Of a stretch of DNA of 64,000 bases, positions 1,015-42,955 are shown in pieces (positions within the stretch are counted from its first letter, which is position 1; every line of letters starts with the position of its first letter). The stretch spans positions 124,001 through 188,000 of the forward strand of contig NZ_AP023361.1 in assembly GCF_014191545.1 (NCBI RefSeq). The letters run 5' to 3'. A model generated the notes under the pieces. That model saw only the letters and a list, made by a program, of their open reading frames with translations, searched no databases and was not told where the DNA came from. This DNA is from Terrihabitans soli (GTDB lineage: Bacteria > Pseudomonadota > Alphaproteobacteria > Rhizobiales > Methylopilaceae). The translations under genes and the position numbers were made by a program.

Positions 1015-1345
1015 GCCGGCACGTAAGTCAGCATGCGTACGTACTTTCCGATGCGGTCTGAGTCACGAGGCGAAGCCGCGGTCGCGGTCGCGGTCGCGGT
1101 CCGACCAAATATCGCTTGCGTTTGTCGATCACGACGGGATGCAGGTAGATGCGATACTCATCGATCAGGCCAAGTTCCGTGAGGTTTTGCGCCAGCGTCG
1201 GGCTGCCAACCTTGATCTCGCGCTCGTCTGCGTTCCATTCGGGATGCTCGTCGTCCCAATGCGTATAATCCCGTATCGGCGCAAACCCCGTATGGCCGAC
1301 ATGGCCGTCGAGCGACCGGTTCATTCCGAAGACGAGTTTCGCCAC
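1011..1345 (-). pseudogene. Degenerate RibD-C/dihydrofolate reductase-like protein
   Basis: The start MAKLVFGMNRSLDGHVGHT and the later LTELGLIDEYRIYLHPVV are hallmark segments of the RibD C-terminal/DHFR-like family, whose members are usually about 175-185 residues. Here only about 105 codons remain. Two internal blocks seem lost: one after FAP (the helix with the YGRRMYE-type motif) and one after the W-x-x-x-E-R region. The C-terminal part contains a GGTCGC-type hexanucleotide expansion at about 1076-1106, read as Pro-Arg repeats. After LRLV the expected tail continues in another frame as SDRIGKYVRMLTYVPA followed by TAA at 1011-1013, so there is also a one-base frameshift. Not expected to be functional. 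Confidence 0.75.
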
Positions 1346-1585
1346 GCCGATTTCCTTTCTTCGCGCAGCCCGACGCTGCGCGTTAACGGACCGTCGTGGC
1401 TTCAGGATTTATCTTTGGCGATCGGGACGACATCAATGGGCGTGCCGACACATCTCTGTTGATCGCGGTTTTTACGTACCTGCGAACCAATGGGCTCTAA
1501 ACTTGCCCTTAACTTCGGTCGGTCATTTGGATCAGCAGTGGCTTCGCGCGACCTATACCTGCAGTAGCTTAAGAGTGGCATATCC

Positions 1586-2449: not shown

Positions 2450-2471
2450 CGCAATCTCCAGCAGGACCCCG

Positions 2472-3335: not shown

Positions 3336-3513
3336 CGACAAGGCGCCGGCAGAACGCCAAGTCCGATCCTGAGCGGTGGGAGTCGACCGTCCGGATCAAG
3401 GGTCCGCGGAATTCGTATCTGGAAGAGGTAGGCGTTGCCTGAACGGACGAGGTGGGGCGTGAGGCGCGCCACACGCCTCGATACAGGCGAATGGCGAAAA
3501 GTGTCCAGGCAAA

Positions 3514-3603
<90 letters not shown>

Positions 3604-3684
3604 GCGAGACGAGGGTTTGGTTGGGAGCGGGTGATGTATACGGGCCGCCCGCGCTGGGCAAGCCAAAGCTCGCGCGAGCAGCCT

Positions 3685-4527
3685 TTACGGTTCCAGCGCC
3701 AGTTTGGTCAGCGATTTGTAGACCGACACCGCCGTCGCCTGGTCGAGCCCGGCAACCGCCGCATTGAACTCGATGCCGACTTTGCAGCCCTCTTCCGGCG
3801 GCAGGCTTTCGACATCGCCGATCTTGCCGAGATTGTCCGGGTCGTAGCCGCTGCGCGAATAGGCGGTGGTCAGGACATCGATGAGATCGTTGACCTCGAG
3901 GATGTTCGCCTTTGAGGGGCTGTTCAGCGCGCTCTCGACCATTTCGGCCTTGATCTCGGTCTCGGCGCGGATGGGCTCCCTCAGGAGGCCTTCGACCTCT
4001 TCCTGGGTAAACCTCGGCACACCGAGATAATAGCCGACACAGGCATCCGGGCTCGTCTCGAGAAGGCGGATCGTCTCGGCATTGCGCTGCAGCAGCCGGT
4101 AGGTCGGCTCATCGCCCGCCTCTTCGACATAATAAAGGAAGTAGCCGGAGAGGATTTCGGCGCTTCCGGCGCCCGCTTGCTGGAAGACCCCCTCGGGGGA
4201 AAGGCCGCTGGACAAGACTTCGTTAACCTTGTCCTTCATCGCGGTTTCGATCTCCGGATGGATCTCGGCCAGGAGGGCATAGAGCTTTGAGGTGGTCTTG
4301 AGCTCGTCGAGGACCCGGTCGGCATCGGTGCTGCTCTCGGCCGGCTTGATGAAAAAGCCGCCGCCGAGAGTGGCAGCCGTTGTGCAGATGAGAAGGGCGA
4401 CGACCCGAAGGAATTCGTTCCTGAGAAGCAGGCCGATCAAGGCCCCCATGCCGATTCCCAGAAGGCCGAAAAGCCCCGCCAGAACAGGCCCGGGAATTTC
4501 TGATAGGATGCCGATCAGCCCTTCCAT
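3685..4527 (-). CDS. Hypothetical membrane protein with large soluble domain
   Basis: 280 residues; I do not recognise the family. Two hydrophobic helices lie near the N-terminus: about 12-35, with a Gly-rich GLFGLLGIGMGALIGLL core, and about 40-60. They are followed by about 220 residues of acidic, helix-rich soluble sequence. The segment ETSPDACVGYYLG resembles a Cys-containing patch seen in some proteobacterial hypothetical proteins, but this is not enough for a function. Coding evidence is an uninterrupted frame, a clean ATG and codon use like its neighbours. It lies directly upstream of tRNA-Ser and divergent from rplU. Confidence 0.75.
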   Translation of the reverse strand: MEGLIGILSEIPGPVLAGLFGLLGIGMGALIGLLLRNEFLRVVALLICTTAATLGGGFFIKPAESSTDADRVLDELKTTSKLYALLAEIHPEIETAMKDKVNEVLSSGLSPEGVFQQAGAGSAEILSGYFLYYVEEAGDEPTYRLLQRNAETIRLLETSPDACVGYYLGVPRFTQEEVEGLLREPIRAETEIKAEMVESALNSPSKANILEVNDLIDVLTTAYSRSGYDPDNLGKIGDVESLPPEEGCKVGIEFNAAVAGLDQATAVSVYKSLTKLALEP

Positions 4528-4736
4528 GCCCCGTCCCCGCGAACCCTTTCAGGGGCGCAGCTTTTCCGCGAGGCGAGCGAAGGTCAAGGTTTCCGTTACC
4601 TTCGGTTGACGAAGTCCCCCTTCAGAGAGTATTCAACCTCCCGAGGGCGCGGGATGTATTTCCCGCGCCATTCGTTTCACCCATCCAGGCTGCCAAGAAG
4701 CCCGTCCATGAGGCGGGATCGAACACGGAGACTATG

Positions 4737-5177
4737 ATGTTCGCAGTCATCAAGACCGGTGGGAAACAGTACAATGTTTCCGCCAATCAGAAGCTGACCG
4801 TCGGCCGCCTTGCGGGCGATGTCGGCTCCACCGTCGAGTTCGGCGATATTCTCGCTCTCGGCGGCGATACGCCGTCCTTCGGCGCGCCGTTTGTCGACGG
4901 CGCCCGCGTGATCGCTGAGATCGTCGAGCATTCGCGCGGCGACAAGGTCATCGCGTTCAAGAAGCGCCGGCGCCAGAATTCGAAGCGCAAGCGCGGCTAC
5001 CGCGATGAGCAGACCGTTCTGCTGATCACGGACGTTCTGGCCAAGGGCCAGCAGCCGAGCGACAAGCCGAAGGCCGCCAAGAAGGCTGCCCCGGCCAAAG
5101 CAGATGCAGACAGCTCCGCCCCGGCCAAGAAGCCGGCGGCGAAGAAGGCGGCCAAGCCCGCCAAGACTGAGGAGTAA
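4737..5177 (+). CDS. rplU: 50S ribosomal protein L21
   Basis: The N-terminal sequence [20 protein letters not shown] is diagnostic for bL21. Two ATGs are adjacent at 4734 and 4737. The second matches the family start and leaves six bases after GGAG (4727-4730), so I use it. The conserved core runs to about residue 100 ([14 protein letters not shown]). A Lys/Ala-rich tail of about 40 residues follows ([13 protein letters not shown] and similar), a common alphaproteobacterial extension. It is followed after five bases by rpmA, the usual L21-L27 pair leading to obgE. Confidence 0.98.
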
Positions 5178-5182
5178 GACCG

Positions 5183-5452
5183 ATGGCACATAAAAAAGCA
5201 GGCGGTTCTTCGCGCAACGGGCGCGACTCGGCCGGCCGTCGCCTCGGCGTCAAGAAGTCGGGCGGCCAGGCCGTTATTGCCGGCAACATCATCGTGCGTC
5301 AGCGCGGTACGACGTGGCATCCCGGCGCGAATGTCGGCATGGGCACCGATCACACTCTCTTTGCTCTCGTAAACGGCAAAGTCGAGTTCGTGTCCAAAAA
5401 AGACGGCCGCACGTACGTGACGGTCGCACCGGCAATGAAAGCCGCAGAATAA
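5183..5452 (+). CDS. rpmA: 50S ribosomal protein L27
   Basis: 89 residues. It begins [20 protein letters not shown] and contains [10 protein letters not shown] and [15 protein letters not shown], the bL27 signature. The N-terminal arm reaches toward the peptidyl-transferase centre in the 50S subunit. No extra N-terminal cleavage peptide of the Firmicutes type is present. Encoded five bases after rplU and followed by two strong hairpins (5454-5479 and 5520-5553) before the next gene. Confidence 0.98.
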
Positions 5453-5453
5453 A

Positions 5454-5479
5454 CGGCGGATCGAGCGACGGATCCGCCG
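5454..5479 (+). terminator. Hairpin downstream of rpmA
   Basis: Perfect 9-bp inverted repeat CGGCGGATC (5454-5462) and GATCCGCCG (5471-5479) with an 8-base loop, starting three bases after the rpmA stop. No U-run follows. It may be a weak or Rho-assisted terminator, or an mRNA 3' stabiliser for rplU-rpmA. Confidence 0.5.
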
Positions 5480-5519
5480 GTGTCAGTTGACCCGGTGGAG
5501 CCGAAAAAGCTCCGGAATT

Positions 5520-5553
5520 CGAAGGGGAGACGGACACCACCGCCTCCCCTTCG
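5520..5553 (+). terminator. Second hairpin between rpmA and the acetyltransferase gene
   Basis: Perfect 10-bp inverted repeat CGAAGGGGAG (5520-5529) and CTCCCCTTCG (5544-5553) with a 14-base loop. It ends 19 bases before the next start codon. No strong U-run follows, so it could act as a terminator, an attenuator or an mRNA processing structure. Confidence 0.45.
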
Positions 5554-5572
5554 TCGCATCTGGAGCACTGCA

Positions 5573-6220
5573 ATGATCTGCGAAGAACTGGAATTTACTC
5601 AGAACGAGGACTGTATCCTCAGGACGGGCAGGCTGGTGCTGCGCCGTCCGCGAGCGGAAGATGCAACGGGCATCGCCTGTCTCGCCAACGATAGGGAAAT
5701 CGCCGAAAACACGGCGCGTATTCCCTATCCGTACACGCTGGCGCATGCGGAAGCCTTCATCGCCTCGTCCAAAGAAGGCGATGAGCACGAGGCGCTGCTC
5801 GCTTTCGCGGAGGTGGACGGTGTCTGTACGGCGATCGGCATGGTCGGCGTCACCCTCGTCGAGGGTGTGCCGCAGGTCGGTTACTGGGTCGGCGCCGCCT
5901 ATCGCGGCAAAGGTTTTGCGACGGAGCTTGCGCGCGCCATGGTCGATCACGTGTTCGAAACGACGGAGGCGGACAAGATCAACGTCTCCTGCCGAGTGAC
6001 GAACACGGCCTCGCGCCGGGTGATCGAGAAGTGCGGCTTTCAGTGGTCGGGCTGCGGCCTCTCCTCCTCGATCGGCCTGAAGGGTTCGGTTCCGGTCGAC
6101 CGGTTCCGCCTCGACCGGCGGATCTGGGAAAGCCTGATTGCCTGGGGTCATGGCCGGAGGGAACGATGGCCTGTAAACGCGCTTTCCGCTAAGCGGAATG
6201 CCGAAACGGTGACGCAATGA
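5573..6220 (+). CDS. GNAT family N-acetyltransferase (RimJ/RimL-like)
   Basis: 215 residues. [20 protein letters not shown] is the standard opening of RimJ/RimL-type acetyltransferases, and [20 protein letters not shown] contains the acetyl-CoA-binding R-G-x-G-x-A motif. [14 protein letters not shown] is the usual C-terminal motif. Start ATG at 5573 is chosen for GGAG at 5562-5565; the open frame further upstream has no conserved sequence. The last four bases (ATGA) overlap the obgE start, so the genes are translationally coupled. In many rhizobia an acetyltransferase sits at this place between rpmA and obgE; its target is unknown. Confidence 0.92.
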
Positions 6221-7260
6221 AATTTCTCGACCAGGCGAAAGTCTTCATCCAGTCCGGCACCGGCGGTGCGGGGTCGGTGAGCTTTCGCCGCGAGAAATTC
6301 ATTGAGTTCGGCGGACCCAATGGCGGCGATGGCGGGCGCGGCGGCGATGTGTTTGCCGAATGCGTCGACGGCCTCAACACGCTGATCGATTACCGCTATC
6401 AGCAGCACTACAAGGCCAAGACCGGCGGTCATGGAATGGGCCAGGACCGCACCGGGGCCGGCGGCGACGATGTCGTACTCAAAGTCCCGGCCGGCACCCA
6501 GATTTTCGATGAGGACGGCGAAACGCTCCTGGCCGACCTCACGGAAATCGGCCAACGCGTGCTCCTTGCCAAAGGCGGCAATGGCGGTTTCGGCAATACA
6601 CGCTTCAAGACCTCGACCAACCGCGCCCCGCGCCATGCCAATCCGGGCCTGCCGGGCGAAGAGCGCTGGATCATCCTGCGCCTCAAGCTCATTGCCGATG
6701 CCGGGCTTGTCGGCCTGCCCAATGCCGGCAAATCGACCTTCCTTGCGGCGGTGACGGCAGCAAAGCCCAAGATCGCCGACTATCCCTTCACGACGCTTCA
6801 TCCAGGCCTTGGCGTGGTGCGCGTCCATAATCGTGAATTTGTCCTCGCCGACATTCCCGGCCTGATCGAAGGCGCCCATGAAGGCATCGGCCTCGGCGAC
6901 CGCTTTCTCGGCCATGTCGAGCGCTGCCGCGTTCTTCTGCATCTCATCGACGGCACCTCGGAAAATGCCGGCGCCGCCTACAAGACCGTCCGCGCCGAGC
7001 TCATCGCCTATGGCGGCGGGCTGGAAGACAAGCCCGAGATCGTCGCTTTGACCAAAGCCGATGCGCTCGACGACGAGACCAAGAAAAAGCAGCTCGCCAG
7101 CCTGAAGCGCGCCTGCAAGCAGACGCCGCTTCTGCTCTCGGCCCATTCGGGCGCCGGCGTTCAGGAGGCCCTCAGTCTCCTCTTGCAGGTCATCGATAAG
7201 GACCGCGCCGTGGAGGCCGAAGCCCAGGCTCCGGTAACCGACACCGCATGGCGACCGTGA
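6217..7260 (+). CDS. obgE: GTPase ObgE/CgtA
   Basis: 347 residues, an essential ribosome-associated GTPase involved in late 50S assembly and stress control. The glycine-rich Obg fold covers about 1-158 ([20 protein letters not shown], then the GGDGGRGGD loop). The G domain follows with P-loop [10 protein letters not shown] at about 166-175, switch region [20 protein letters not shown] (G3) and TKAD (G4). A C-terminal tail is short. It overlaps the preceding acetyltransferase gene by ATGA and is followed by proB. Confidence 0.98.
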
Positions 7261-7314
7261 CGCTTCACTGACTTTGTGATAGCGCCACTCCAATTCTCTT
7301 AAGCGGTTCGCCCC

Positions 7315-8436
7315 GTGTCCGTGCCCCAACTCATCCAGTTCCGCCGCGTCGTCGTCAAAATCGGCTCGGCCCTTCTCGTCGACGCCGAACAGGGCGCGCT
7401 GAAACGCGCCTGGCTGGAAAGCCTCGCCGAAGACATGGCCGCTCTCACCAAGCGCGGCGCGGACGTCCTTGTCGTCTCCTCCGGCTCGATTGCGCTCGGG
7501 CGCACCGTGCTCGGCCTGCCGGGCCGGGCGCTGCGCCTCGAGGAAAGCCAGGCGGCCGCGGCCGTCGGCCAGATCGCGCTTGCCCGCGCCTGGTCGGAAG
7601 TGCTCGGCGGGCACGGGCTGACGGCAGGCCAGATCCTTCTGACCTTGGGAGATACGGAAGAACGCGAGCGCTATCTGAATGCGCGCGCAACGCTGCAGCG
7701 CCTTCTCGATTTCAAGGCCGTTCCCGTCATCAACGAAAACGACACCGTGGCGACGACCGAAATCCGCTACGGCGACAATGACCGCCTTGCGGCGCGCGTT
7801 GCCACCATGGCCTCGGCCGATCTTCTCGTTCTCCTGTCCGATATCGACGGTCTGTACACCGCGCCGCCGCAGCGCGATCCCGATGCGAAACACATTCCTG
7901 TCGTCGAGCGCGTCACCGCCGAGATCGAAGCCATGGCGGGCGCCGCGGGTTCGGAGTTCTCGCGCGGCGGCATGAAGACCAAGATCGACGCGGCGAAGAT
8001 CGCGACCAATGGCGGCGCGCATATGGTCATCGCGTCGGGCAAGGTTCTGCACCCGCTTCGCCAGATCGAGCAGGGCGGCACCTGCACCTGGTTCCTCGCG
8101 ACCGGAAGTCCGTCCGCAGCGCGCAAGCGCTGGATCGCGGGCACGCTTGTCGCCCGCGGCTCGCTCTATCTCGACGAAGGTGCGGTGAAGGCGCTGCGTT
8201 CCGGCAAGAGCCTTCTTCCCGCCGGCGTGACGCGCGTCGAGGGCAATTTCTCGAACGGCGATGCGGTTGTCGTGCGCGATCCTGCCGGCAATGAAATCGG
8301 CCGCGGTCTTGTGGCTTATGACGCGGTGGATGCGATCAAGATCGCCGGAAAGAATTCGGCGGCCATCGAGGAAATCCTCGGCGCGCCGTTCCGCAGCGCC
8401 ATGATCCATCGCGACGATCTCGTTGTCGGCGCGTAG
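7315..8436 (+). CDS. proB: Glutamate 5-kinase
   Basis: 373 residues, the first enzyme of proline synthesis, phosphorylating glutamate with ATP. The amino-acid kinase domain runs from about 10 to 265 (VVKIGSALL near the start, [19 protein letters not shown] and [11 protein letters not shown]). A C-terminal PUA domain is present from about 280, beginning near the [16 protein letters not shown] segment. Start GTG at 7315; another GTG follows at 7321 and the choice is not firm because no strong Shine-Dalgarno is visible. It is followed by proA, giving the usual obgE-proB-proA order. Confidence 0.97.
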
Positions 8437-8516
8437 GGGGCGGCAATGACGTCCCGTTTGCCTTCTTTTCCTATCCTGCGTGCGAACCCGCTCCCGCTTC
8501 GCTATATAAAGTCCCG

Positions 8517-9806
8517 ATGAACCGTCCCGTCGCCAAGCCTTCCGGCAATCCGATAGCCGCGCTGATGTCCCGTCTGGGCAACTCGGCGCGGGCGGCGGCG
8601 CGCGTGCTGGCGCTGGCCGATGCGGCCACCAAGGACAAAGCGCTTCTTGCCATGGCTGCGTCGATCCGCACCCGCGCGGCAAAGATCCTTGCCGCCAACG
8701 AGGAAGATGTTGCCGCGGCGCAGAAGGCCGGCGCGAGCGCGGCGCTGATCGATCGCCTCATTCTGAACGCGGCGCGCATCGAAGGCATGGCTGCCGGTAT
8801 AGAGGCCGTCGCCGCTTTGCCCGATCCGGTCGGGCGCGTACTTGCCGAATGGCAGCAACCCAACGGCCTGAAGTTCGAGCGCGTTGCAACGCCGCTCGGC
8901 GTCATCGGCGTGATCTATGAGAGCCGCCCCAATGTTACGGCCGATGCTGCGGCGTTGACGCTGAAATCCGGCAATGCCGTCATCCTGCGCGGCGGCTCGG
9001 ACAGTCTGAAATCCTCCGCTGCGATTCATGAAGCTCTCGTCGAGGGCATCAAATCCGCGGGCCTTCCCGAAGGCGCAGTGCAGATCGTGCCGACCAAGGA
9101 TCGCGATGCGGTCGGCGAAATGCTGTCCGGTCTTGACGGAAATCTCGATGTCATCGTGCCGCGCGGCGGCAAGGGTCTTGTTGCGCGTGTACAGACAGAA
9201 GCGCGCGTTCCGGTTTTTGCCCATCTTGACGGCAACAACCATATCTATGTGCACGCGCCCTGCGATCTCGATCTTGCGAAGAAGATCTTGCTGAACGCCA
9301 AGCTGCGCCGCACCGGCGTCTGCGGCGCAGCCGAGACTTTGCTCGTCGACAGGGCTCTGGCGGAAACGCATCTGAAACCGCTTGTGACCATGCTGCTCGA
9401 TGCCGGTTGCGCCGTGCGCGGCGATGCGGCTGCCCGGAAAGCCGATCCGCGCGTCACGGAAGTCTCCGAGCAGGATTATGCGACGGAGTTTCTCGACGCC
9501 ATCATCGCCGCCGGCGTCGTCGACGGCCTTGATGCCGCGATCGCTCATATCGAGCGTTACGGCTCGCATCACACCGACGCGATCATCACCTCCGATAAAA
9601 CTGCCGCCGAACGTTTTCTGCGCGAGGTCGACAGCGCGATCGTGCTCCACAACGCCTCGACGCAGTTTGCCGATGGCGGCGAATTCGGCTTCGGCGCCGA
9701 GATCGGCATTGCCACGGGGCGTATGCACGCGCGCGGGCCGGTCGGGCTTGAGCAGCTGACAAGCTTCAAATATCGCGTCCGCGGCGAGGGGCAGACACGG
9801 CCGTGA
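8517..9806 (+). CDS. proA: Gamma-glutamyl phosphate reductase
   Basis: 429 residues, NADPH-dependent reduction of glutamyl 5-phosphate to the semialdehyde, the second proline step. Aldehyde-dehydrogenase fold with [20 protein letters not shown] and the catalytic-cysteine region [15 protein letters not shown]. The segment [20 protein letters not shown] is diagnostic for ProA. Its stop overlaps the GTG start of nadD by four bases (GTGA), so proA and nadD are translationally coupled. Confidence 0.98.
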
Positions 9807-10402
9807 TCGCTCTGCCGCCGCATGCGCCCGGCATGCGCATCGGTCTTTACGGCGGGTCGTTCAACCCGCCGCACGCGGCGCATCTCATGGTCTCGAAAAC
9901 CGCTTTGCGCCGTCTCGGGCTCGACCGGGTCTGGTGGCTGGTCACGCCGGGAAATCCCTTAAAGCCGCGCGCCGATCTGAAACCGCTCGGGGAGCGCCTC
10001 GAGCTGTCGGGCAAGCTCATCGACGACACCCGCATTTCGGCGACCGGACTTGAGGCCGAACTCGGCACGCATTTTACCGTCGATACGGTGGGCGCGCTGC
10101 AGCGGCTTTGCCCGGATGTGCGGTTTGTGTGGCTGATGGGGGCGGACAATCTCGCCCAGTTCGGCCGCTGGCGGGACTGGCGGACGCTGGCCGCGCGGGT
10201 GCCTTTCGCGGTGATCGACCGGCCGGGCTTCACCCACCGTGCCCTAAGGGGGAAGGCGGCTCTGGCCCTCTCCAAGCACCGGATCGATGAGAGCGATGCC
10301 GGCCTTCTGGCCGATCTTGTCCCTCCGGCCTGGACTTTCCTGCACGGCCCGCGCTCTAGCCTGTCCTCGACGGCCATCCGCGCAAAAACGTCACGCAAGT
10401 GA
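9803..10402 (+). CDS. nadD: Nicotinate-nucleotide adenylyltransferase
   Basis: 199 residues, forms deamido-NAD from nicotinate mononucleotide and ATP. The nucleotidyl-transferase motif [15 protein letters not shown] is at about 13-27, [10 protein letters not shown] follows, and the C-terminal SSTAIRAK is the second signature motif (SSTxIR). Start GTG at 9803 overlaps the proA stop; an in-frame ATG at 9833 is a possible later start but would leave little before the fold. Followed by rsfS, the conserved nadD-rsfS pair. Confidence 0.96.
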
Positions 10403-10484
10403 GGTAGAACTTCACTTGAACGAACCTTTACCGAATCCCTATATTGATTCGTGTGGCCGCATATGGGTGCGTCCCACAGCGTGA

Positions 10485-10913
10485 GTGAGGGCGAAAACAC
10501 TGCAGATGTCTTTGTCTCAGGGGGCGGGCAAGAACACGCTCCCGAAAGGTGCCCCGGCCGCCGTCCCGGCCGCCGCGGACCTGAATTCGCTGATCCAAGG
10601 CCTCCTCGACGATGCGAAAGCCGAGAAGACCACCGTGATCGACCTGACGGGAAAATCCTCCATAGCCGACGTGATGATCGTGACCGAAGGGCGGGCCAAC
10701 CGCCATGTCGCCGCGATCGCCGACCGCGTCGTCCGGGGCCTCAAAGAACAGGGGCATAAGGGTCTTCGCGTCGAAGGGCTGAACACCGCCGATTGGGTTC
10801 TGATCGATGCCGGCGATGTCATCCTTCACATCTTCCGTCCGGAAGTCCGCTCCTTCTACAATCTGGAAAAGATGTGGTCGGCGGATCGTCCGGTGGAGCG
10901 GATGGCGGTCTGA
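10485..10913 (+). CDS. rsfS: Ribosome silencing factor RsfS
   Basis: Up to 142 residues, binds L14 of the 50S subunit and blocks subunit joining in starvation. Conserved segments are VIDLTGKSSIADVMIVTEG, then NTADWVLIDAGDVILHIF and RSFYNLEKMW. The N-terminal 30 residues are Ala/Pro-rich and not conserved. The start is uncertain: GTG at 10485 gives the longest form, while ATG at 10506 (MSLSQGAGKN) is also plausible, with a GAGGGC element about 14 bases upstream. Placed between nadD and rlmH as in most proteobacteria. Confidence 0.95.
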   Translation: MRAKTLQMSLSQGAGKNTLPKGAPAAVPAAADLNSLIQGLLDDAKAEKTTVIDLTGKSSIADVMIVTEGRANRHVAAIADRVVRGLKEQGHKGLRVEGLNTADWVLIDAGDVILHIFRPEVRSFYNLEKMWSADRPVERMAV

Positions 10914-10931
10914 CGCGTCTATAGTGCGGCA

Positions 10932-11414
10932 ATGAAACTCCTTATTGCCGCCGTAGGTAAACTGAAGCACGGGCCCGAGGGTGACCTCGTTGCCCGCTAT
11001 GCGGACCGCACTGTCCAGATCGGTCGCGCTCTGGCGCTAGCGCCCTTCGACATTCACGAAATCTCCGAAAGTAAAGCCAAGCGCGCCGAGGACCGAAAGC
11101 GCGAAGAGGCGGCAGGGCTGACCGAACTTCTCGTTCCCGGCGTGCTCATCGCGCTCGACGAGACCGGAAAAACCCTCACCAGCACGGAATTCTCACAACA
11201 GCTCGCCCGCTGGCGCGATGACGGCACGCAGACGGCGCAATTCGTCATAGGCGGCCCCGACGGCCTCGATCCCGCTCTGCGCGAGCGCGCCGTATTGACG
11301 ATGAGCTTCGGGCGCATGACCTTGCCCCACCAATTGGTCCGTGCGCTGCTCGCCGAACAGATCTATAGGGCGGCGACGATTCTTGCGGGACATCCCTATC
11401 ACCGCGAAGGTTAG
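10932..11414 (+). CDS. rlmH: 23S rRNA pseudouridine-1915 N3-methyltransferase
   Basis: 160 residues, a SPOUT-class methyltransferase acting on helix 69 of assembled ribosomes. MKLLIAAVGKLK is the family start. FVIGGPDGLDP and the C-terminal HQLVRALLAEQIYRAATI, HPYHREG are the knotted SAM-binding region and the conserved tail. Spaced 18 bases from rsfS. It ends 22 bases before the envC-like gene, consistent with one transcript. Confidence 0.97.
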   Translation: MKLLIAAVGKLKHGPEGDLVARYADRTVQIGRALALAPFDIHEISESKAKRAEDRKREEAAGLTELLVPGVLIALDETGKTLTSTEFSQQLARWRDDGTQTAQFVIGGPDGLDPALRERAVLTMSFGRMTLPHQLVRALLAEQIYRAATILAGHPYHREG

Positions 11415-11436
11415 GGCGGGGATAGCGATTCGCATC

Positions 11437-12759
11437 ATGCGGCCACGGACGACACGACAGCTTATTGCCGGCGCCATCGGCGCGGGGCTGTTTGCCGTGG
11501 CGTTTTTCGCCGCGGCGCAGGAAACAGCGCCGGAAGCTGTTCCCGAGGAGCTGAATATCCGCCGCGAAAATCTCGGCAAGAGCGCCGAAGATCTCGGCCG
11601 CACCAAGGAAATGCAGCAGAAGCTGCGCGCCGAAATCCAGCAGCTTGCCGAAGAGCGCTCGCGCCTGTCGGCCGAACTCGTCGCGACCGCGGCGCGCGCC
11701 CGCGACACCGAGGCGAAGATGAGCGCGAGCGAGGCCAAGCTCGCCGATCTCGCCGACACCGAGAACGATATCCGCAAGAAGTTCGAAAGCCGGCGCGCCG
11801 TCGTCGCCGAGCTTCTCGCCGCTCTGCAGCGTATGGGCCGCAATCCGCCGCCGACGCTCCTCGTCCAGCCCGAAGACGCGCTCGCCTCGATTCGCTCGGC
11901 GATCGTCCTCGGTGCAGTGCTGCCGGAGATCCGTGAACAGGCGGAAGAGCTCGCCGCCGATCTCGAAGAACTGGGGCGCATCCGCCGTGAAGCGGTCCGC
12001 CATCGCAATCTCCTCGCCGCCGACAAAGCCGACCTCCTGGCGGCGCAGCAGCGCCTCGGCCTTCTGGTCGAGGTCCGGCAGACCAAGCTCAAGGAGCGGG
12101 AGCAGACCTTGGCGGGCGAAACCCGCAAGGCGGCCGAACTCGGACGCCAGGTGCAATCTCTCGAAGATTTGATTGCCCGTATGGAGAAGGATGTCGATGC
12201 CGCCAGGAAGGCCGCCGAGGCGGCTGCCGCGGCGCCCGAGCCGCCTCCGCCGCCCACCGGAGGCCCCCGCCAGGACCTCGCCGCCCTCTCGGACCCCGGG
12301 CGGATGGCCCCGGCGGTTGCCTTCGGTTCGGCCAAGGGCCTCTTGCCATTGCCTGTTTCGGGAACTCGTCTCAGGAGCTTTGGCGAGACCGACGATCTGG
12401 GCTCATCCCAGAAAGGGCTCACAATTTCGACGCGATCTCAGGCTCAAGTCACCGCGCCTTGTGACGGCTGGGTGGTGTATGCTGGGCCGTTCCGCTCCTA
12501 TGGACAACTCTTGATCCTGAACGCCGGCGGCGGATACCATGTGTTGCTCGCCGGTATGGAAAAGATCAGCGTATCGCTAGGGCAGTTTGTGTTGACGGGT
12601 GAACCGGTTGCCGAGATGGGCGCCGCATCCGGCCAAATTGTCTCAGTGGTCGGGGGCGCCGCAAGACAGCCGGTGCTCTATGTCGAGTTCCGCAAAGATG
12701 GTCAGTCGATCGATCCCGGGCCTTGGTGGGCCCTCAATTCGGAAAAGGTTCGTGGATAA
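11437..12759 (+). CDS. EnvC-like murein hydrolase activator
   Basis: 440 residues. A signal-type hydrophobic segment (about 10-28, GAIGAGLFAVAFFAAAQ) precedes about 220 residues of heptad-rich coiled coil, a Pro-rich linker and a C-terminal LytM/M23-like domain (about 325-430). The domain lacks the zinc ligands of active M23 peptidases: the first His/Asp site reads SSQKGLTIST, and the HxH site is replaced around GGYHVLLAGM. As in E. coli EnvC, that suggests an amidase activator rather than an enzyme. Start ATG 11437; the stop overlaps the ctpA start (TAATG). It acts in the periplasm at division. Confidence 0.88.
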   Translation: MRPRTTRQLIAGAIGAGLFAVAFFAAAQETAPEAVPEELNIRRENLGKSAEDLGRTKEMQQKLRAEIQQLAEERSRLSAELVATAARARDTEAKMSASEAKLADLADTENDIRKKFESRRAVVAELLAALQRMGRNPPPTLLVQPEDALASIRSAIVLGAVLPEIREQAEELAADLEELGRIRREAVRHRNLLAADKADLLAAQQRLGLLVEVRQTKLKEREQTLAGETRKAAELGRQVQSLEDLIARMEKDVDAARKAAEAAAAAPEPPPPPTGGPRQDLAALSDPGRMAPAVAFGSAKGLLPLPVSGTRLRSFGETDDLGSSQKGLTISTRSQAQVTAPCDGWVVYAGPFRSYGQLLILNAGGGYHVLLAGMEKISVSLGQFVLTGEPVAEMGAASGQIVSVVGGAARQPVLYVEFRKDGQSIDPGPWWALNSEKVRG

Positions 12760-14222
12760 TGCGTAAGACGACACTTGTTCTTGCAGGCGCCCTTCTCGGC
12801 GCGACCGCCATGAGTCTTGCCCGCGATCCGGACATTATCTCCAAGGCCTGGGCGGCCAATGCGGAGACCTACAAGAATCTCAATCTCTTCGGCGATGTGT
12901 TCGAGCGCGTCCGCGCCGACTATGTCGAAAAGCCCGACGACAAGCAGCTCGTCGAAAATGCCATCCAGGGCATGCTCAACGGGCTCGACCCGCATTCGAG
13001 CTATATGGACGACAAGCGCTATCGCGACCGCCAGGTGGATATCCGCGGCGAGTTCGGCGGCCTCGGCATCGAGGTCACGATGGAGAACAACCTGGTCAAG
13101 GTCATGTCGCCGATCGACGACACGCCGGCCTCCAAAGCCGGCATCCAGGCCAACGACATCATCACTCATATCGACGGCGAAGCGGTCGAAGGCCTGACCC
13201 TGCCGCAGGCGGTCGAGAAGATGCGCGGCGCGGTCAACACACCGATCCTGCTCAAGATCCTGCGCAAGGATTCGGAGCCGCTCGAGATCAAGCTCGTGCG
13301 CGACATCATCCGCATCCGCGTCGTCAAGAACCGTGACGAAGGCGATCTCGGCTATGTCCGTATCGCCCAGTTCACCGAGCAGACCGAAGACGAGCTGCTC
13401 AAGGCGATCGACACCATCAACAAGAAGATTCCGAAGGATAAGCTCAAGGGCTATGTCCTTGATCTGCGCAACAATCCGGGCGGCCTGCTCGACCAGTCGA
13501 TCCGCGTCGTCGATGCGTTCCTGAATCGCGGCGAGGTCGTGTCGACCCGCGGCCGCAAGCCGGAAAACATCGACCGCTATTCGGCCCGTCCGGGCGATGT
13601 GATCGACGGCAAGCCGCTGATCGTGCTCGTCAACGGCGGTTCGGCCTCGGCCTCTGAAATCGTCGCTGGCGCTCTGCAGGACCACAAGCGCGCGACGATT
13701 GTCGGTACGCGTTCCTTCGGCAAGGGCTCGGTCCAGACCATCCTGCCGCTCGGCCCGAACGGCGTGAACGGCGCTCTGTCGCTGACGACGGCGCGTTACT
13801 ACACGCCGTGCGGCCGCTCCATCCAGGCGACGGGCATCGAGCCCGACATCCTGATCGAGCCGAAGATTCCGGACGAGCTGAAGGGCAAGGACCGGATGCA
13901 GGGCGAAGCGGGTCTGCGCGGCCACCTGCGCGGCACGAACGAGGACGCTAAGGATGCGCGTCCGGCGGCTCCCGTCTCTCAGGAAGAGATCAAGAGCGAA
14001 GAGAAGAAGACCGACGCCGACGGCAAGAAGGAAGAGGGCGGTTCCTCCGCCTATGTGCCGCCGGATCCGAAGGACGACGTGCAGCTGCAGCTCGCTTACG
14101 AGCTGATCCGCGGCGCCAAGACCGACGGCAAGTTCCCGCCGAAGCCCGGCGAGCTGTCGTCCGAGTGCTCGCAGGTCGCCAAGGCCTCCGGCACTCCGGC
14201 CAAGAAGAGCCAGGCGAACTAA
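12759..14222 (+). CDS. ctpA: C-terminal processing serine peptidase (S41, CtpA family)
   Basis: 487 residues. Signal-like N-terminus (TTLVLAGALLGATAMSLA), a PDZ domain at about 95-180 (GEFGGLGIEVTMENNL), then the S41 catalytic domain. The dyad is Ser297 in NGGSASASEIVAGALQD and Lys322 in RSFGKGSVQT, 25 residues apart as in E. coli Prc. The last 90 residues are Lys/Glu-rich. ATG at 12759 overlaps the preceding stop by one base. It trims C-termini of periplasmic proteins, and its coupling to the EnvC-like gene suggests roles in cell-wall hydrolase control. Confidence 0.95.
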   Translation: MRKTTLVLAGALLGATAMSLARDPDIISKAWAANAETYKNLNLFGDVFERVRADYVEKPDDKQLVENAIQGMLNGLDPHSSYMDDKRYRDRQVDIRGEFGGLGIEVTMENNLVKVMSPIDDTPASKAGIQANDIITHIDGEAVEGLTLPQAVEKMRGAVNTPILLKILRKDSEPLEIKLVRDIIRIRVVKNRDEGDLGYVRIAQFTEQTEDELLKAIDTINKKIPKDKLKGYVLDLRNNPGGLLDQSIRVVDAFLNRGEVVSTRGRKPENIDRYSARPGDVIDGKPLIVLVNGGSASASEIVAGALQDHKRATIVGTRSFGKGSVQTILPLGPNGVNGALSLTTARYYTPCGRSIQATGIEPDILIEPKIPDELKGKDRMQGEAGLRGHLRGTNEDAKDARPAAPVSQEEIKSEEKKTDADGKKEEGGSSAYVPPDPKDDVQLQLAYELIRGAKTDGKFPPKPGELSSECSQVAKASGTPAKKSQAN

Positions 14223-14247
14223 GCGCCGATAGGCTCAGCCACTACCG

Positions 14248-14288
14248 AGAATCACAGGCGGCGGATAACATCCGCCGCTTCTGATTCT
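14248..14288 (+). terminator. Long hairpin after ctpA
   Basis: An outer stem AGAATCA (14248-14254) with TGATTCT (14282-14288) and an inner 9-bp stem GCGGCGGAT (14258-14266) with ATCCGCCGC (14270-14278) form one extended hairpin after the ctpA stop. Only short T tracts follow, so termination may be partial and the next gene may still be read through. Confidence 0.6.
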
Positions 14289-14302
14289 TGAGGTTCGCGC
14301 GA

Positions 14303-15475
14303 GTGGCGGCGGACGACCTGGACACACCTCTCGGCATGAACGAACGGAAGAAGCGCCGTTTGCCGAATGTTGCGCCGGTCGTCGCCGGCATTGTCGCTAC
14401 GATTTTCGGCATCGGCATCGCCTGGGTCATGCTGATCGACAATCCGCTCGGCGGCGAACCTGTGGCCGTCGTCGCCATCGATCGCACCAAGCCGCAGGCG
14501 GGCCAGTCCAAACAGACCGCAGCTCCCTCACAGCAGAATCAGGCTCAGGGCGCGCCGCCGCAATCGGCCAAGGATCAATCGGGTCAGCCCTCTGCCGAGA
14601 CGGCGAGCAAATCCGGCCCGCTCATCATCAAGGTGCCGCAGAACGGCGCGCCGTCAGGCCCCTCCGTGATGGGCCAGGGCGATACGGTGGTCTCCGAAGC
14701 GTCGAAATACGGCATGGTGCCGAAGATCGGTGCCGACGGCCGCAAGCCCTCCGACATCTTCTCGAAAACCTCCGTCGCCGAAGCAGAAGACAAAAGGCCG
14801 AAGATCGCCATTCTGATGGGCGGGCTCGGCGTCGGCCGCGAGGCGACGAACGAGGTGTTCGAGAAACTGCCGCGCACGATCACGCTCGGCTTCCCGCCCT
14901 ATAGCGACAATCTCGAACAATGGGTCGCCCGGGCGCGTGAGGAGGGGCATGAGATCATGCTCCAGGTGCCGATGGAGCCGTTCGATTATCCGAACAACGA
15001 TCCCGGCCCGCAGACGCTGCTGACCTCGCTGCCCGCCGCCGCCAATATCGATCGTCTGCTCTGGGTGATGAGCCGCACCGGCGGCTATTTCGGTGTCACC
15101 TCCTATATGGGCGCGAAGTTCACCGCGTCCGAGGAGGCGCTTGCGCCGGTTCTCACCGAGATCGGCCGCCGCGGCCTCGTCTTCGTCGACAATGCCTCTT
15201 CGCCGCGAAGCCTCGTCTCGAAGGTCGGTCCCGAGACCGGCACGATTACCGCCCGCGCCGAGCTTGTCATCGATGCGACACCGAATGCCGACGATATTGA
15301 TGCGGCTCTCGTGCGGCTCGAGGAAAAGGCGAAGAGGGAAGGCGCTGTGATCGGATTTGCCAGCCCTCTGCCCATCACCATTGCCCGCCTCGAGGCCTGG
15401 GCCGGCCAGCTCACCTCCAAGGGCATTGCCCTCGTGCCGGTCAGCGCGGTGGTAAAGCGTTTCAATCCTTCCTAA
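14303..15475 (+). CDS. Divergent polysaccharide deacetylase family protein (YibQ-like)
   Basis: 390 residues. One membrane helix at about 20-45 ([22 protein letters not shown]) is followed by a Gln/Pro/Ala-rich linker and a domain from about 155 with [19 protein letters not shown], then [21 protein letters not shown] and [13 protein letters not shown]. This is the divergent polysaccharide deacetylase family found beside envC and ctpA in proteobacteria. GTG at 14303 is chosen as the rhizobial family start ([10 protein letters not shown]); an in-frame TTG lies at 14288. Periplasmic, probably cell-wall related; activity is untested in this family. Confidence 0.9.
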
Positions 15476-15485
15476 ATTCACTTCC

Positions 15486-15980
15486 ATGCCGAAACTGCCC
15501 TACCGCCCCTGCGTGGGCGTGATGCTCGTCAACCGGGACGGACTTGCCTTTGTCGGCAAGCGCGCGCCCGGCGGCAATGAGCCCACCGAAAATGTCTGGC
15601 AGATGCCGCAGGGCGGCATCGACGAGGGCGAAGATCCTTATGAGGCGGCGCTGCGCGAACTCTATGAAGAGACGAACGCAAGCTCGGTCGAGCTGATCGG
15701 CTCCACGAAAGGCTGGGTCACCTACGATCTTCCGCCCGAACTCGTCGGCGTCGCCTGGAAGGGGAAGTATTGCGGCCAGAAGCAGAAATGGTTCGCGCTG
15801 CGCTTCACCGGCAAGGACAAAGAGATCGATGTGAAGAAGCCGGGCGGCGGCAAGCACCGGCCGGAATTCGAAGACTGGCGCTGGGAGAAGATCGAAAAAC
15901 TCCCCGGCCTGATCGTGCCGTTCAAGCGCGCCGCTTATGAAGAAGTCGTCGCCGAGCTTCTGCCGCTGGTGAAGGCGTGA
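15486..15980 (+). CDS. rppH: RNA pyrophosphohydrolase, first copy
   Basis: 164 residues, converts 5'-triphosphate mRNA ends to monophosphate and triggers decay. Starts [18 protein letters not shown] and has [13 protein letters not shown], the RppH signature. The Nudix box reads REL-YEE-TN, with Asn where the canonical box has Gly, while the metal-binding Glu residues are intact. It ends in a GTGA overlap with a second copy. Start ATG 15486 lies 10 bases after the previous stop. Confidence 0.93.
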
Positions 15981-38801: not shown

Positions 38802-39584
38802 CTATACTTCCCGCTCCTGCATTAGCTTTTTGATTTCGACGATCGCCGCCGCCGGGTTCAGACCCTTCGGGCAAACATTGGCGCAGTTCATGATCGTATG
38901 GCAGCGGTACAGGCGGAAGGGATCTTCCAGAGTGTCCAGACGCTCGGCGAGACCCTCGTCGCGGCTGTCGATCATCCAGCGATAGGCCTGCAGCAGAGCG
39001 GCCGGGCCGAGATATTTCTCGCCGTTCCACCAATAGCTCGGGCACGAGGTCGAGCAGCAGGCGCACAGAATGCATTCGTAAAGACCGTCGAGCTTGTCGC
39101 GGTCTTCGGGGCTCTGCGCCCATTCCTTTTCCGGCGGCGCGGTCGAGGTCTTGAGGAAGGGCTCGATCAGATTGACCTGATTGTAGAAGGTCGACAGATC
39201 CGGAACGAGATCCTTGATCACCGGCATATGCGGCAGCGGGTAGATCTTGATGACGTTCTCGCCGACTTCGTCCATGCCCTTGGTGCAGGCGAGCGTATTG
39301 GCGCCGTTGATGTTCATCGAGCACGAACCGCAAATGCCCTCGCGGCAGGAGCGGCGGAAAGTCAGGCTCGAGTCGATCTCGTTCTTTATGTAAATCAGCC
39401 CGTCGAGGATCATCGGCCCGCAATGTTCGCGGTCGACCCAATAGGTGTCGATCTTCGGGTTCTCGCCGTCATCCGGGTTCCAGCGATAGATGCGGAACTC
39501 CGTCAGCGTTTTCGCACCCTCGGGCTTCGGCCAGGCCGTGCCTTCCTTGATGCGGGAATTTTTGGGGAGAGTGAACTCAGCCAT
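38802..39584 (-). CDS. sdhB: Succinate dehydrogenase iron-sulfur subunit
   Basis: 260 residues. 2Fe-2S motif [20 protein letters not shown], then the 4Fe-4S/3Fe-4S cysteine motifs [17 protein letters not shown] and [17 protein letters not shown] are intact. Electron carrier between SdhA and the quinone. Normally sdhB follows sdhA within a few tens of bases; here it is separated by about 1.2 kb of foreign-looking DNA. An AGGA element 13 bases before the start could be the Shine-Dalgarno. Confidence 0.97.
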
Positions 39585-39715
39585 GGTCGGATTTTCCTAT
39601 AACGTCTTGGCAGGTCAAGAGGCTCAAGTGAGTTGCTTCACCGCGTGCTTGCACCGAACAAAATTTCAACTGATGAGTATGGCTACATGCCCACGCATCT
39701 CTAATAAGAAGCCAA

Positions 39716-40231
39716 GTGATCAAGGATCGACCCTCCCAGCTTTTGTCTAGCCCCGGCTACGACACGCTCCCAGCTCTACCTATCTCCTTGGACCTTTCCT
39801 CGGTTCCAAACTGGATCAAGCTATCGATGCTGCACCTTAGTGGCGTGCAGCCGCTCACATCAGAGATGGCCGAAGCCGCGGAATACATACTTGAGGACAG
39901 ACCGTCTGATGGCGAACTCGCGTTGTATCGAGCCAAAGGAACGCAATTCCAAATCATTTCTGTCGTCACCAGTGTTGCGGCTTTCCGAACGATCGAGGGT
40001 GTCCCTTCCGGAGTGCCATACGCCATCTCTTTGATACCAGCGACGAAGCGCGATCGAGTGTCCCTGGTTAACGTCGACTATGTGGAGAACATCAGTCTCA
40101 ACCACCATCTCCAAGAGGTTCAGCCTTGTTACTACAAATTCGATCCCTTCACGGGGGCTGGGGGATGTTCGGGCCCATCGCGCTTTTGGGTGAAAAGCAG
40201 AGGGAAGGTTTCGCAGACGAGATCGGCATAG
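39716..40231 (+). CDS. N-terminal part of a putative nuclease-like gene, frameshifted
   Basis: 171 residues from GTG 39716; the real protein is probably this part joined to the next frame at about 40160. I do not recognise the domain. It is soluble, moderately acidic and without signal peptide. The last residues (SGPSRFWVKSRGKVSQTRSA) look like out-of-frame reading after the frameshift, while the sequence before, YYKFDPFTGAGG, continues naturally as MFGPIALLGEKQ in the other frame. GC content is visibly lower than in the neighbouring sdh genes. Opposite in orientation to sdhA and sdhB, so probably acquired. Confidence 0.5.
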   Translation: MIKDRPSQLLSSPGYDTLPALPISLDLSSVPNWIKLSMLHLSGVQPLTSEMAEAAEYILEDRPSDGELALYRAKGTQFQIISVVTSVAAFRTIEGVPSGVPYAISLIPATKRDRVSLVNVDYVENISLNHHLQEVQPCYYKFDPFTGAGGCSGPSRFWVKSRGKVSQTRSA

Positions 40232-40755
40232 TTACAGACATGTACTACATGCAGACAGAATTCGATCCTGACCAAGTTCTAACGGTGAACTTGGGAATGG
40301 AAGATGGCGCGCCTCTCCGCAAATACATCCGTCATCGTACTAGGTTGACCTGCACTCCCTTCAATAGGCTTGAGGCGCGCCGAATTTGGGGCGCTGGTTC
40401 ACCAATTGAGCTGTTTCTGATGCAGGGCTTGCTGCAGCGCGGCCATTCTCCGACGCTTCAAATGCTCCTCTATGACGATGGGTCAACATATCCGTGCCTG
40501 TATCACCTTTGGGCTGAGAGCAACGCGAACACTCCAGGCTTTATCACCGAGTCGGACTTCTTCTTTCCCGAGCAAAGGGTCGCTGTATTCTGCGATTCAA
40601 CCCGGCATCACCGCAGCAGAAAGGCTGCAAAGAAGGACTATGCAATCAATGATCGGCTTGCTGCAGCGGGCTTCACGCCGGTCCGAGTTCCTGGCTCCTT
40701 GATCGTGAGAGATATCGATTCCGCAGTGGCCATGGTGTGTGAGGCTCTAGAGTGA
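40165..40755 (+). CDS. C-terminal part of the putative PD-(D/E)XK (Vsr/DUF559-like) nuclease
   Basis: The open frame runs from 40126; ATG 40165 directly follows a G5 run. Its end resembles Vsr/DUF559-type PD-(D/E)XK endonucleases: Glu95 in GSPIELFLMQ, Asp144 in TESDFFFPEQ, Asp157 in RVAVFCDSTRHH, then a helix with DYAINDRLAAAGFTPVRVP (residue numbers count from 40126). Predicted metal-dependent DNA endonuclease core. No partner methyltransferase or other defence gene is adjacent. Together with the preceding frame it would encode about 345 residues. Family assignment is by motif layout only. Confidence 0.55.
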   Translation: MFGPIALLGEKQREGFADEIGIVTDMYYMQTEFDPDQVLTVNLGMEDGAPLRKYIRHRTRLTCTPFNRLEARRIWGAGSPIELFLMQGLLQRGHSPTLQMLLYDDGSTYPCLYHLWAESNANTPGFITESDFFFPEQRVAVFCDSTRHHRSRKAAKKDYAINDRLAAAGFTPVRVPGSLIVRDIDSAVAMVCEALE

Positions 40756-40776
40756 GCATTTGAGGCGCTAGAGGAT

Positions 40777-42573
40777 TCAATACACCCGCTTTCTCGGCGC
40801 GATGTATTCGACTTCGTCGGTCAGCGTGTAGGAGTGCACCGGGCGGTAGTCGATCGTCACCTTGCGGGCGTTCGTGTCGGCCCAGGCGAGCGTGTGCTTC
40901 ATCCAGTCGCCGTCATTGCGGTCCGGGAAGTCTTCGCGCGCATGGGCGCCGCGGCTTTCCTCGCGGTTCAGCGCGCTGTCGACCGTCACAACGGCCTGGG
41001 CGATCAGATTGTCGAATTCCAGCGTTTCGATGAGATCGGAATTCCAGACCAGCGAGCGGTCGGAGATTCTGACGTCCTCGGCCGAATCCCACACTTTGTG
41101 AATCAGCTCTTTGCCTTCCGCCAGAACTTCGCCGGTGCGGAACACCGCGCAATTCGACTGCATGACGCGCTGCATATCGAGGCGCAGCTTTGCCGTCGGC
41201 GTCTTGCCGTTGGAATTGCGGATGCGGTCGAGGCGGTCGAGCGCCTTGTCCGCTGAATCCTTCGGCAGCTCCGGCTGGGGCGAGGAGGGCTTGATGATCT
41301 CGGCGCAGCGCTGGCCGGCGGCGCGCCCGAAGACGATGAGGTCGGTCAGCGAGTTCGAGCCGAGACGGTTTGCGCCGTGCACCGACACGCAGGCGCCTTC
41401 GCCGAGTGCCATCATGCCGGGCACGACAAAATCCGGATCGCCGTTTTTCTTGGTCAGCACTTCGCCGTGATAATTCGTCGGGATGCCGCCCATATTGTAA
41501 TGGACGGTCGGAATGACCGGGATCGGCTCACGCGTGATGTCGACGCCGGCAAAGATCTTGGCGCTTTCCGAGATGCCGGGCAGGCGCTCATGCAGCACCG
41601 CCGGGTCGATATGCTCGAGATGCAGCAGGATGTGATCCTTGTGGCGGCCGCAGCCGCGGCCTTCGCGGATCTCGATCGTCATGGCGCGCGAGACGACATC
41701 GCGCGAGGCGAGGTCTTTTGCGTGCGGCGCATAACGCTCCATGAAGCGTTCGTTCTCGGAATTCGTCAGATATCCGCCTTCGCCGCGCGCGCCTTCGGTG
41801 ATGAGGCAGCCCGAGCCGTAAATGCCCGACGGATGGAACTGCACGAATTCCATATCCTGCAGCGGCAGGCCGGCGCGCAGCACCATGCCGCCGCCATCGC
41901 CGGTGCAGGTATGCGCCGAGGTCGCGGAGAAATAGGCGCGTCCGTAGCCGCCGGTCGCCAGCACCGTCATATGGGAGCGGAAGCGGTGGATCGTGCCGTC
42001 ATCCATCTTCAGCGCGATGACGCCGCGGCAGCGGCCTTCCTCATCCATGATGAGATCGAGTGCAAAATACTCGATGAAGAATTCGGAGCTATGCTTCACG
42101 CACTGTCCATACAGGGTATGGAGGATGGCGTGGCCGGTGCGGTCGGCGGCGGCGCAGGTGCGCTGCGCGGCACCGCCCTGGCCGTATTCCGTCGTCATGC
42201 CGCCGAAGGGGCGCTGATAGATCTTGCCGTCTTCGGTGCGCGAGAAGGGCACGCCCCAGTGCTCGAGCTCATAGACGGCGGCCGGCGCATTGCGGCAGAG
42301 ATATTCGATGGCGTCCTGATCGCCGAGCCAGTCCGATCCCTTGATGGTGTCGAACATGTGCCAGCGCCATTCGTCCGGCGACATATTGCCGAGCGCCGCC
42401 GACATGCCGCCTTGCGCTGCGACGGTGTGCGAACGCGTCGGAAAAACTTTTGTCAGGCAGGCGGTGCGAAGGCCGGCCGAAGACGAGCCGAGCACGGCAC
42501 GCAGGCCGGCGCCGCCGGCGCCGACGACGACCACATCATAGGTGTGGTCCACGATCGGATAGGCGTCCGCCAT
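40777..42573 (-). CDS. sdhA: Succinate dehydrogenase flavoprotein subunit
   Basis: 598 residues. FAD-binding [18 protein letters not shown], the covalent-flavin His in [13 protein letters not shown], and active-site segments [11 protein letters not shown] and REGRGCG are intact. ATG at 42573 ([14 protein letters not shown]) is chosen; the open frame upstream overlaps sdhD and is not conserved. It oxidises succinate and passes electrons to SdhB. Its stop faces the stop of the inserted nuclease-like gene. Confidence 0.98.
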
Positions 42574-42574
42574 C

Positions 42575-42955
42575 TCAGCCACCAAGTCCGATCTTGAGCA
42601 GGAAATAAAACGCCGCCGCAGCGCCGCCATAGGAGAAGAAGATGTTGGCGCCGACCATGAGCTTTTTCATCGTTTTGTCGTGCACGTAGTCGTCGATGAC
42701 GTTCTGCATGCCAAGACGCATATGTTTCGCATTGGCGAGGATAAAGAAGAACAGCGGCACTGCGATGAAGGGCGAGGCGATGGCGTCCGTCACCTGCGCA
42801 TGATCGGCATCCTTCATCGCGATCAGAAAGCCGATGAGGAAGACGGTCAGCGGCAAAAGCGCGACCGAGGTCAGCTTCAGGAGCCAGTATTCGCGCGTGC
42901 CGGTGCCTGATGCGCCGAGACCGCGGACGCGGGCAAAGGGTGTGCGGGCGACCAT
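42575..42955 (-). CDS. sdhD: Succinate dehydrogenase membrane anchor subunit
   Basis: 126 residues with three membrane helices. [21 protein letters not shown] is the usual alphaproteobacterial SdhD opening, and [20 protein letters not shown] holds heme/quinone-site residues. ATG 42953-42955 overlaps the sdhC stop, so sdhC and sdhD are coupled. Its stop is one base before the sdhA start. Confidence 0.95.

Follow-up and report, generated by a model that had tools for sequence, protein, structure and literature searches.

A probably horizontally acquired and inactivated gene for a predicted nuclease between sdhA and sdhB of Terrihabitans soli

Several described systems serve as points of comparison for the gene between sdhA and sdhB of Terrihabitans soli and for the ~345-residue protein family to which it belongs. 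The fold of Vsr (PDB 1cw0 and 1vsr) is common to the C-terminal ~120 residues of our family model. Vsr chains in those entries are 134-155 residues long, whereas the nuclease family has an additional N-terminal region of ~220 residues, and no dcm-like partner was noticed by eye next to the window gene. According to the accessible part of PMC3710099, MTES_1575 is a new REase domain of the Vsr type that occurs in fusions with HEPN and further domains. The last ~60 residues of the family match MTES_1575 and DUF559, under both curated cut-offs in every matching member, and the family differs from MTES_1575 proteins in having no HEPN, helicase or transglutaminase fusion. The catalytic domain of I-Bth0305I (3r3p), an EDxHD homing endonuclease, is alike in fold, and the motif name, as it appears in the accessible part of PMC3943268, fits the order E, D, D, H, D of our candidate residues, an assignment made in this analysis. 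I-Bth0305I homes, whereas members of the nuclease family occupy varied genomic places with no sign of homing. Weak sequence and fold signals (E 0.19 and 0.8; Z 5.2-5.6) connect the nuclease domain with the modification-dependent nucleases PvuRts1I and AbaSI, from which the window family differs in that its nuclease is C-terminal. Finally, the gpA-gpQ interval of P2-like prophages is a hotspot of anti-phage genes according to the part of PMC9122126 that was available; one relative (L035) lies in that region without a PADLOC match, and the same part of the paper does not mention the family. Among the matches listed in a literature search of titles and abstract openings, none named a ~345-residue nuclease family of this kind. 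As far as these searches show, the family appears to be uncharacterised.

The window, that is, the whole stretch of DNA that was analysed, comprises 64,000 nt of T. soli contig NZ_AP023361.1. An earlier note on this DNA had pointed to a gap of about 1.2 kb between sdhA and sdhB with an oppositely oriented gene in it. The distance is 1,192 bp, and the nuclease-family gene lies on the plus strand, antisense to the minus-strand sdh operon. The features are as follows.

38802-39584, minus strand: sdhB, left neighbour; matches solved succinate dehydrogenase iron-sulphur subunits (E 9.5e-112)
39585-40776, no strand: insert between sdhB and sdhA; the spacer of congeners (n = 3) is 43-83 bp
39716-40231, plus strand: ORF1, 171 aa, GTG start; N-terminal half, first ~150 codons in register with relatives
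40126-40755, plus strand: ORF2, 209 aa; C-terminal half with the predicted nuclease domain, in register with relatives from about 40165
40160-40180, plus strand: frame break, where similarity to relatives switches from ORF1 to ORF2
40408-40410 (E), 40555-40557 (D), 40594-40596 (D), 40609-40611 (H) and 40636-40638 (D), plus strand: five candidate active-site residues in ORF2
40777-42630, minus strand: sdhA, right neighbour; matches solved flavoprotein subunits (E 8.4e-268)

Beyond sdhA, two minus-strand ORFs overlap sdhA and one another, in agreement with the tight packing described earlier; by position we take them to be sdhD and sdhC. The lower base composition seen by eye was borne out as well, with a GC content of 0.532 for 39585-40776 and 0.632 for the remainder of the window (0.54 for the gene, 0.63 for its surroundings), and none of 605 overlapping segments of the same size outside the insert had a GC content as low. 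Codon scores of the insert's two ORFs were -0.10 and -0.05, compared with 0.08 to 0.49 for the retained window genes, a list that had been filtered at a codon score of 0.05. A scan of the insert for promoters and terminators returned 1 and 0 sites, inside the shuffled expectation. No direct repeat of at least 10 nt was found to pair the two edges, where the earlier note had likewise seen no convincing target-site duplication. An imperfect 13-nt direct repeat (12/13) occurs at 40740-40752 and 40761-40773, at the 3′ end of the gene and on the sdhA side only.

The idea that one gene fills the gap held in part. A plus-strand gene is present; its coding part covers 39716-40755, less than the whole 39585-40776 interval, and is spread over two frames. 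ORF1 and ORF2 overlap in different frames, and in the assembly as given no single uninterrupted frame joins them. Intact relatives are 344-365 residues long, start at the ORF1 start and end at about the ORF2 end, and two of them likewise have a GTG start. The window copy is a member of this family, sharing 30-43% identity in its N-terminal half and 31-46% in its C-terminal half with eight intact relatives and retaining 51 of the 56 positions that are invariant among them. The frame break cuts the nuclease off from the N-terminal region, so that the gene should not yield a full-length protein. The break would leave at most a bare nuclease fragment, so that the window copy should have lost its function. 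It is likely a relic, one of the two readings that the earlier note had offered, and the break near 40160-40180 speaks for it.

It is unlikely, in our judgment, that the frame break stems from an assembly error and that the cell has an undamaged, functioning gene. Such an error would fit a genome deposited as a single complete contig with its sequencing method not stated, a break situated in a G-rich stretch, and two halves that are otherwise well conserved and free of further stops; among the E. coli copies opened, a difference of one base likewise splits one, and the other four are intact. A frame-switch scan of codon usage across the window and 20 further stretches (464 kb, 15% of the 3.11 Mb genome) yielded 5 weak candidates among 488 coding-like segments and suggests a low error rate, but because the scan scores native codon usage and missed the known break, it gauges the error rate in native genes only. 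We prefer to see the frame break as a real, recent mutation rather than a base-calling error in the G-rich stretch. The split E. coli copy, from strain RM9387 (L160, 7366-8432), has a one-base length difference at residue 241, unlike the position in the window. With one of the five opened E. coli copies split as well, breakage or an error of this kind also occurs outside the T. soli genome.

It is very improbable that the split arrangement is functional, either through programmed frameshifting or with ORF2 alone as a free nuclease domain, even though ORF2 has a possible TTG start of its own and retains all five candidate catalytic residues. Programmed frameshifting was disfavoured because reading of the junction revealed no classical X-XXY-YYZ slippery heptamer in frame and because each of the eight aligned relatives is one open frame.

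The fold of the nuclease domain was predicted with AF2 from an alignment of six relatives (A4), using the Mesorhizobium relative L003 as query (pLDDT 76.7, pTM 0.79). When residues 224-344 of this model were compared using VIA-align, the highest scores were obtained with the I-Bth0305I catalytic domain 3r3p (Z 11.4, rmsd 2.6, 90 aligned), 3hrl (Z 10.9, rmsd 1.6, 85 aligned), Vsr 1cw0 (Z 10.2, rmsd 2.3, 97 aligned) and 1vsr (Z 9.4, rmsd 2.0, 93 aligned). These top rows exceed the middling rows, yet three mitoribosomal chains reach Z 7.4-8.8. Foldseek returned no match to the whole model in the PDB at E < 0.001 and two matches at E < 0.001 in a viral library, one of them named endonuclease. The fold call rests on VIA-align and Pfam. 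The C-terminal part is thus predicted to be a Vsr/DUF559-type PD-(D/E)XK nuclease, with the alpha-beta-beta-beta-alpha-beta core present in the model of relative L003, as had been proposed from the letters of the window. The Glu and two Asp residues singled out at that time proved to be conserved in the eight intact relatives together with a His and a further Asp: E230, D280, D293, H298 and D307 are invariant, and all five are present in ORF2. This E-D-D-H-D set would correspond to the catalytic residues.

Pfam MTES_1575 matched ORF2 and four relatives with E-values from 2e-7 to 0.058, below the curated cut-off. For the last ~60 residues of ORF2, E-values were 2.6e-5 with MTES_1575 (PF18741) and 0.051 with DUF559 (PF04480), and the bit scores, 24.7 against a gathering cut-off of 38.2 and 13.9 against 20.6, fell short for both families. 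The four relatives scored 13.9-31.3 bits against the cut-off of 38.2, and DUF559 matched the last ~60 residues in three of five proteins, always under its cut-off. The member in another genome of the same order (L155) had no Pfam match at E 0.001. Because the scores lie under the cut-offs and this member has none, we do not file the family under MTES_1575 or DUF559. Sequence searches of solved structures gave no match with the family profile and only PvuRts1I (E 0.8) with ORF2; an NCBIfam scan gave one chance match (E 0.06), and a PHROGs scan of two relatives gave none. No full-length model of the family was present in the four profile libraries scanned.

The structural comparison also bears on a different origin, in which the gene for a free-standing homing endonuclease spreads by cleavage of the empty sdhA-sdhB junction and copying during repair, without any gain for the host. 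The best structural match of the family is the catalytic domain of a homing endonuclease, two relatives gave weak PADLOC 'HEase' matches (E 0.0023 and 0.032), and the window holds one gene alone between two conserved genes. Homing endonucleases share this nuclease fold, which counts against the explanation that we favor; as Vsr lies only 1.2 Z units under I-Bth0305I, the fold does not separate a homing from a Vsr type. However, the relatives reside in unlike places (the phage gpA-gpQ region, beside int, after tail genes, on plasmids and in an integrase region), no sdh genes were seen by eye beside relatives in the loci read, and a Pfam search of four relatives at E up to 1 found no NUMOD-type module. 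A homing origin is quite unlikely.

The N-terminal ~220 residues matched no Pfam family and no solved fold, the latter on a poor model. When the N-terminal 224 residues were folded alone (pLDDT 64.5), a single VIA row was obtained, at Z 2.3, and Foldseek found no match under E 0.001. This model is too poor to support a claim of a new fold.

The spacing of sdhA and sdhB was compared among relatives, as the earlier note had suggested, and the gene is not common to them all. Three congeners were sampled, and their gene-free spacers measure 43, 73 and 83 bp. Neither half of the gene was matched in the other 17 genomes of the family Methylopilaceae, nor in any of 60 relatives that included these 17. 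A class-wide sample (385 genomes including T. soli) had four others with C-terminal partial matches only, and a phylum-wide sample (398 including T. soli) had 13 others, 12 of which matched over the last ~60 residues only and one of which (G874) matched at full length. A scan of GTDB species contigs for short peptide patterns, which detects close relatives only, led to two relatives. Intact relatives are rare. The empty spacers of the congeners and the lack of matches elsewhere in the family support a recent gain of the insert.

Many relatives are located on mobile DNA. The relative L035 belongs to a P2-like prophage, where a replication initiator gene (gpA-like, phrog_91) lies on one side of it and the portal/terminase/scaffold genes lie on the other, and where an ORF two places upstream encodes an endonuclease/exonuclease/phosphatase; this gpA-gpQ placement is the strongest single item of context. 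Two near-identical relatives (L034 and L036) directly follow an integrase, with a phage transcriptional-regulator gene nearby, another (L038) follows phage tail genes, and a fourth (L037), on a phage contig, has replication genes to one side and lysis genes to the other. The gene just downstream of it on this prophage contig (L037, 6321-7067) encodes another DUF559-type protein, different from the first. The relative L004 is next but one to a phage-type ParB-methyltransferase gene. Plasmid relatives occur in Photobacterium damselae (two records, one opened), where the copy is near an integrase and a RelE/ParE-type gene, and in Alteromonas stellipolaris, where a gene for a HEPN_LA2681 protein follows the nuclease gene (L026, 6810-8549).

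In E. coli, 14 of 5,426 genomes matched in a distant DNA search over 26% of the query, and similarity of the protein to both window halves was checked for one copy. In the five records opened, the gene encodes 355 residues (split in one); chromosomal yeg/ibs genes flank it on one side and phage tail genes on the other, with the tail-fibre genes three ORFs away. One copy is annotated as a PDDEXK family nuclease, and an intact copy is protein WP_073488482.1. This place would be a prophage edge, although the stretch examined contained no integrase. The L155 gene (region 418-15952) has an integrase 5 kb to one side and a type III methyltransferase, a primase and PADLOC PDC-M48B on the other, the methyltransferase and PDC-M48B being 4-6 kb away. 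The genes directly on both of its sides are unassigned, and three proteins encoded next to it are without Pfam or PADLOC matches. Near the Mesorhizobium gene (L003) are JmjC, PhyH and radical-SAM genes, and no phage marker was seen. No relative was found in INPHARED (50,697 phage records, three queries) or in two single-protein scans of IMG/VR. That the relatives from viral contigs and plasmids lie on mobile DNA follows from the choice of those collections, which contain no other kind of sequence; in collections free of this bias, phage or integrase genes were near L004, L155 and the E. coli copies and not near L003. These finds (3/4) are suggestive of a family that rides mostly on mobile DNA, in a pattern that partly reflects the collections searched. 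A conserved partner gene was considered and rejected, as no neighbour was common to the loci; one pair was tested, the genes upstream of the nuclease gene on the plasmids of Photobacterium and Alteromonas, which are dissimilar, and the remaining loci were compared by eye.

Our best explanation, held with moderate confidence, is that the window gene arrived by horizontal transfer and is a copy, probably no longer active, of a stand-alone ~345-residue nuclease family engaged in conflict between phages or mobile elements. In intact members, the N-terminal ~220 residues would sense or bind a cue of foreign DNA or infection, and cutting of DNA would fall to the C-terminal nuclease of Vsr/DUF559 type, at a metal-dependent E-D-D-H-D center. 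The family would travel on prophages, plasmids and integrative regions, with a role most likely in conflict with other phages or mobile elements. Since there is no fixed methyltransferase partner, self-recognition by its own methylation is unlikely. To tell self from foreign, the nuclease would more probably act on phage DNA that is modified or in replication, or respond to a protein made by the phage.

The RelE/ParE-type toxin gene near the Photobacterium copy and the HEPN_LA2681 gene near the Alteromonas copy would agree with a toxin or cargo that maintains plasmids or prophages rather than one that defends against phages. This seems improbable to us, given that the loci read have no small antitoxin-like gene in common and that the gene stands alone between sdhA and sdhB. 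A place in conflict is consistent with the surroundings of some relatives, which lie in a defence hotspot or island (L035, L155); L003 has no such neighbour. The defence-database search proposed earlier was negative for the window, as neither half had a match in PADLOC-DB 2.0.0 at E up to 5, and five relatives gave either none or partial matches to unrelated profiles (E 0.0008-0.05). Of the small defence island once suggested, the defence-type cargo stands as a likely origin, judging from the locations of relatives, and the island does not, there being one gene. The observation behind the earlier note is confirmed and its first interpretation is partly supported; of the two results that the note had named as refuting it, the same gene in all close relatives and a predicted structure lacking the PD-(D/E)XK fold, neither was obtained.

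A broader proposal is possible, if somewhat doubtful: the family may be an undescribed single-protein anti-phage system, with a new-fold N-terminal sensor and a Vsr-like nuclease, whose range would extend from E. coli to rhizobia by way of P2-like hotspots and other prophages, of plasmids and of integrative regions, and in the order of T. soli the sdhA-sdhB spacer may be a chromosomal docking slot that repeatedly gains and loses such cargo, with VapD/Cas2-like and PIN-domain genes in neighbours as further examples. If this is right, a rare stand-alone nuclease family joins the candidates for phage defence, and the intact E. coli copies allow a direct test in laboratory strains. The copy in the window is probably cargo of an ordinary kind in decay, and the greater interest lies in the family from which it comes. 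The unexpected gene in the sdhA-sdhB gap would then be explained as worn-out mobile cargo.

A gene that splits the sdh operon was earlier thought to be unusual, which the spacers of related genomes contradict. At least 150 bp separate sdhA and sdhB in 11 of the 17 relatives of the same family, all 11 from one genus (13 sampled). ORFs in these spacers encode a coiled-coil-like protein of ~75 residues (five genomes), a PIN-domain protein and an alpha/beta hydrolase. A further spacer ORF, which we take to be VapD-like, matched Pfam Cas2 at 23.7 bits (cut-off 23.8). In a survey of 150 genomes of the order, sdhB passed the chosen cut-offs in 145 and sdhA did so in 146, and both were on one contig and strand in 126; setting aside four with the other gene order and one with the genes 31 kb apart left 121 linked genomes. 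The spacer was shorter than 150 bp in 68 of these and 150-6,663 bp long in 53, T. soli included. Ten spacer genes picked by eye comprised two for FkbM-type methyltransferases, one each for another methyltransferase, a glycosyltransferase, a sulphotransferase, a pyruvyl transferase and a hydrolase, and three without a Pfam match. As the genes in the order's spacers are varied, the slot is a general cargo site rather than a defence site. A literature search on genes between sdhA and sdhB found no paper, and the present survey suggests that, in this one bacterial order, genes have been inserted at the junction repeatedly.

Across the order, the spacer ranges from a few bp to 6.7 kb and holds unlike genes (L009, L011, L013-L018, L020, L022; L071-L120). 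Among the 143 genomes of the order with both genes, there are 17 in which sdhA and sdhB do not share a contig or a strand, and contig breaks may explain some of these. In four genomes (G463, G526, G036 and G533), the two genes are more than 200 kb apart and in the other order, and the sdh operon itself seems to have been broken up in some lineages.
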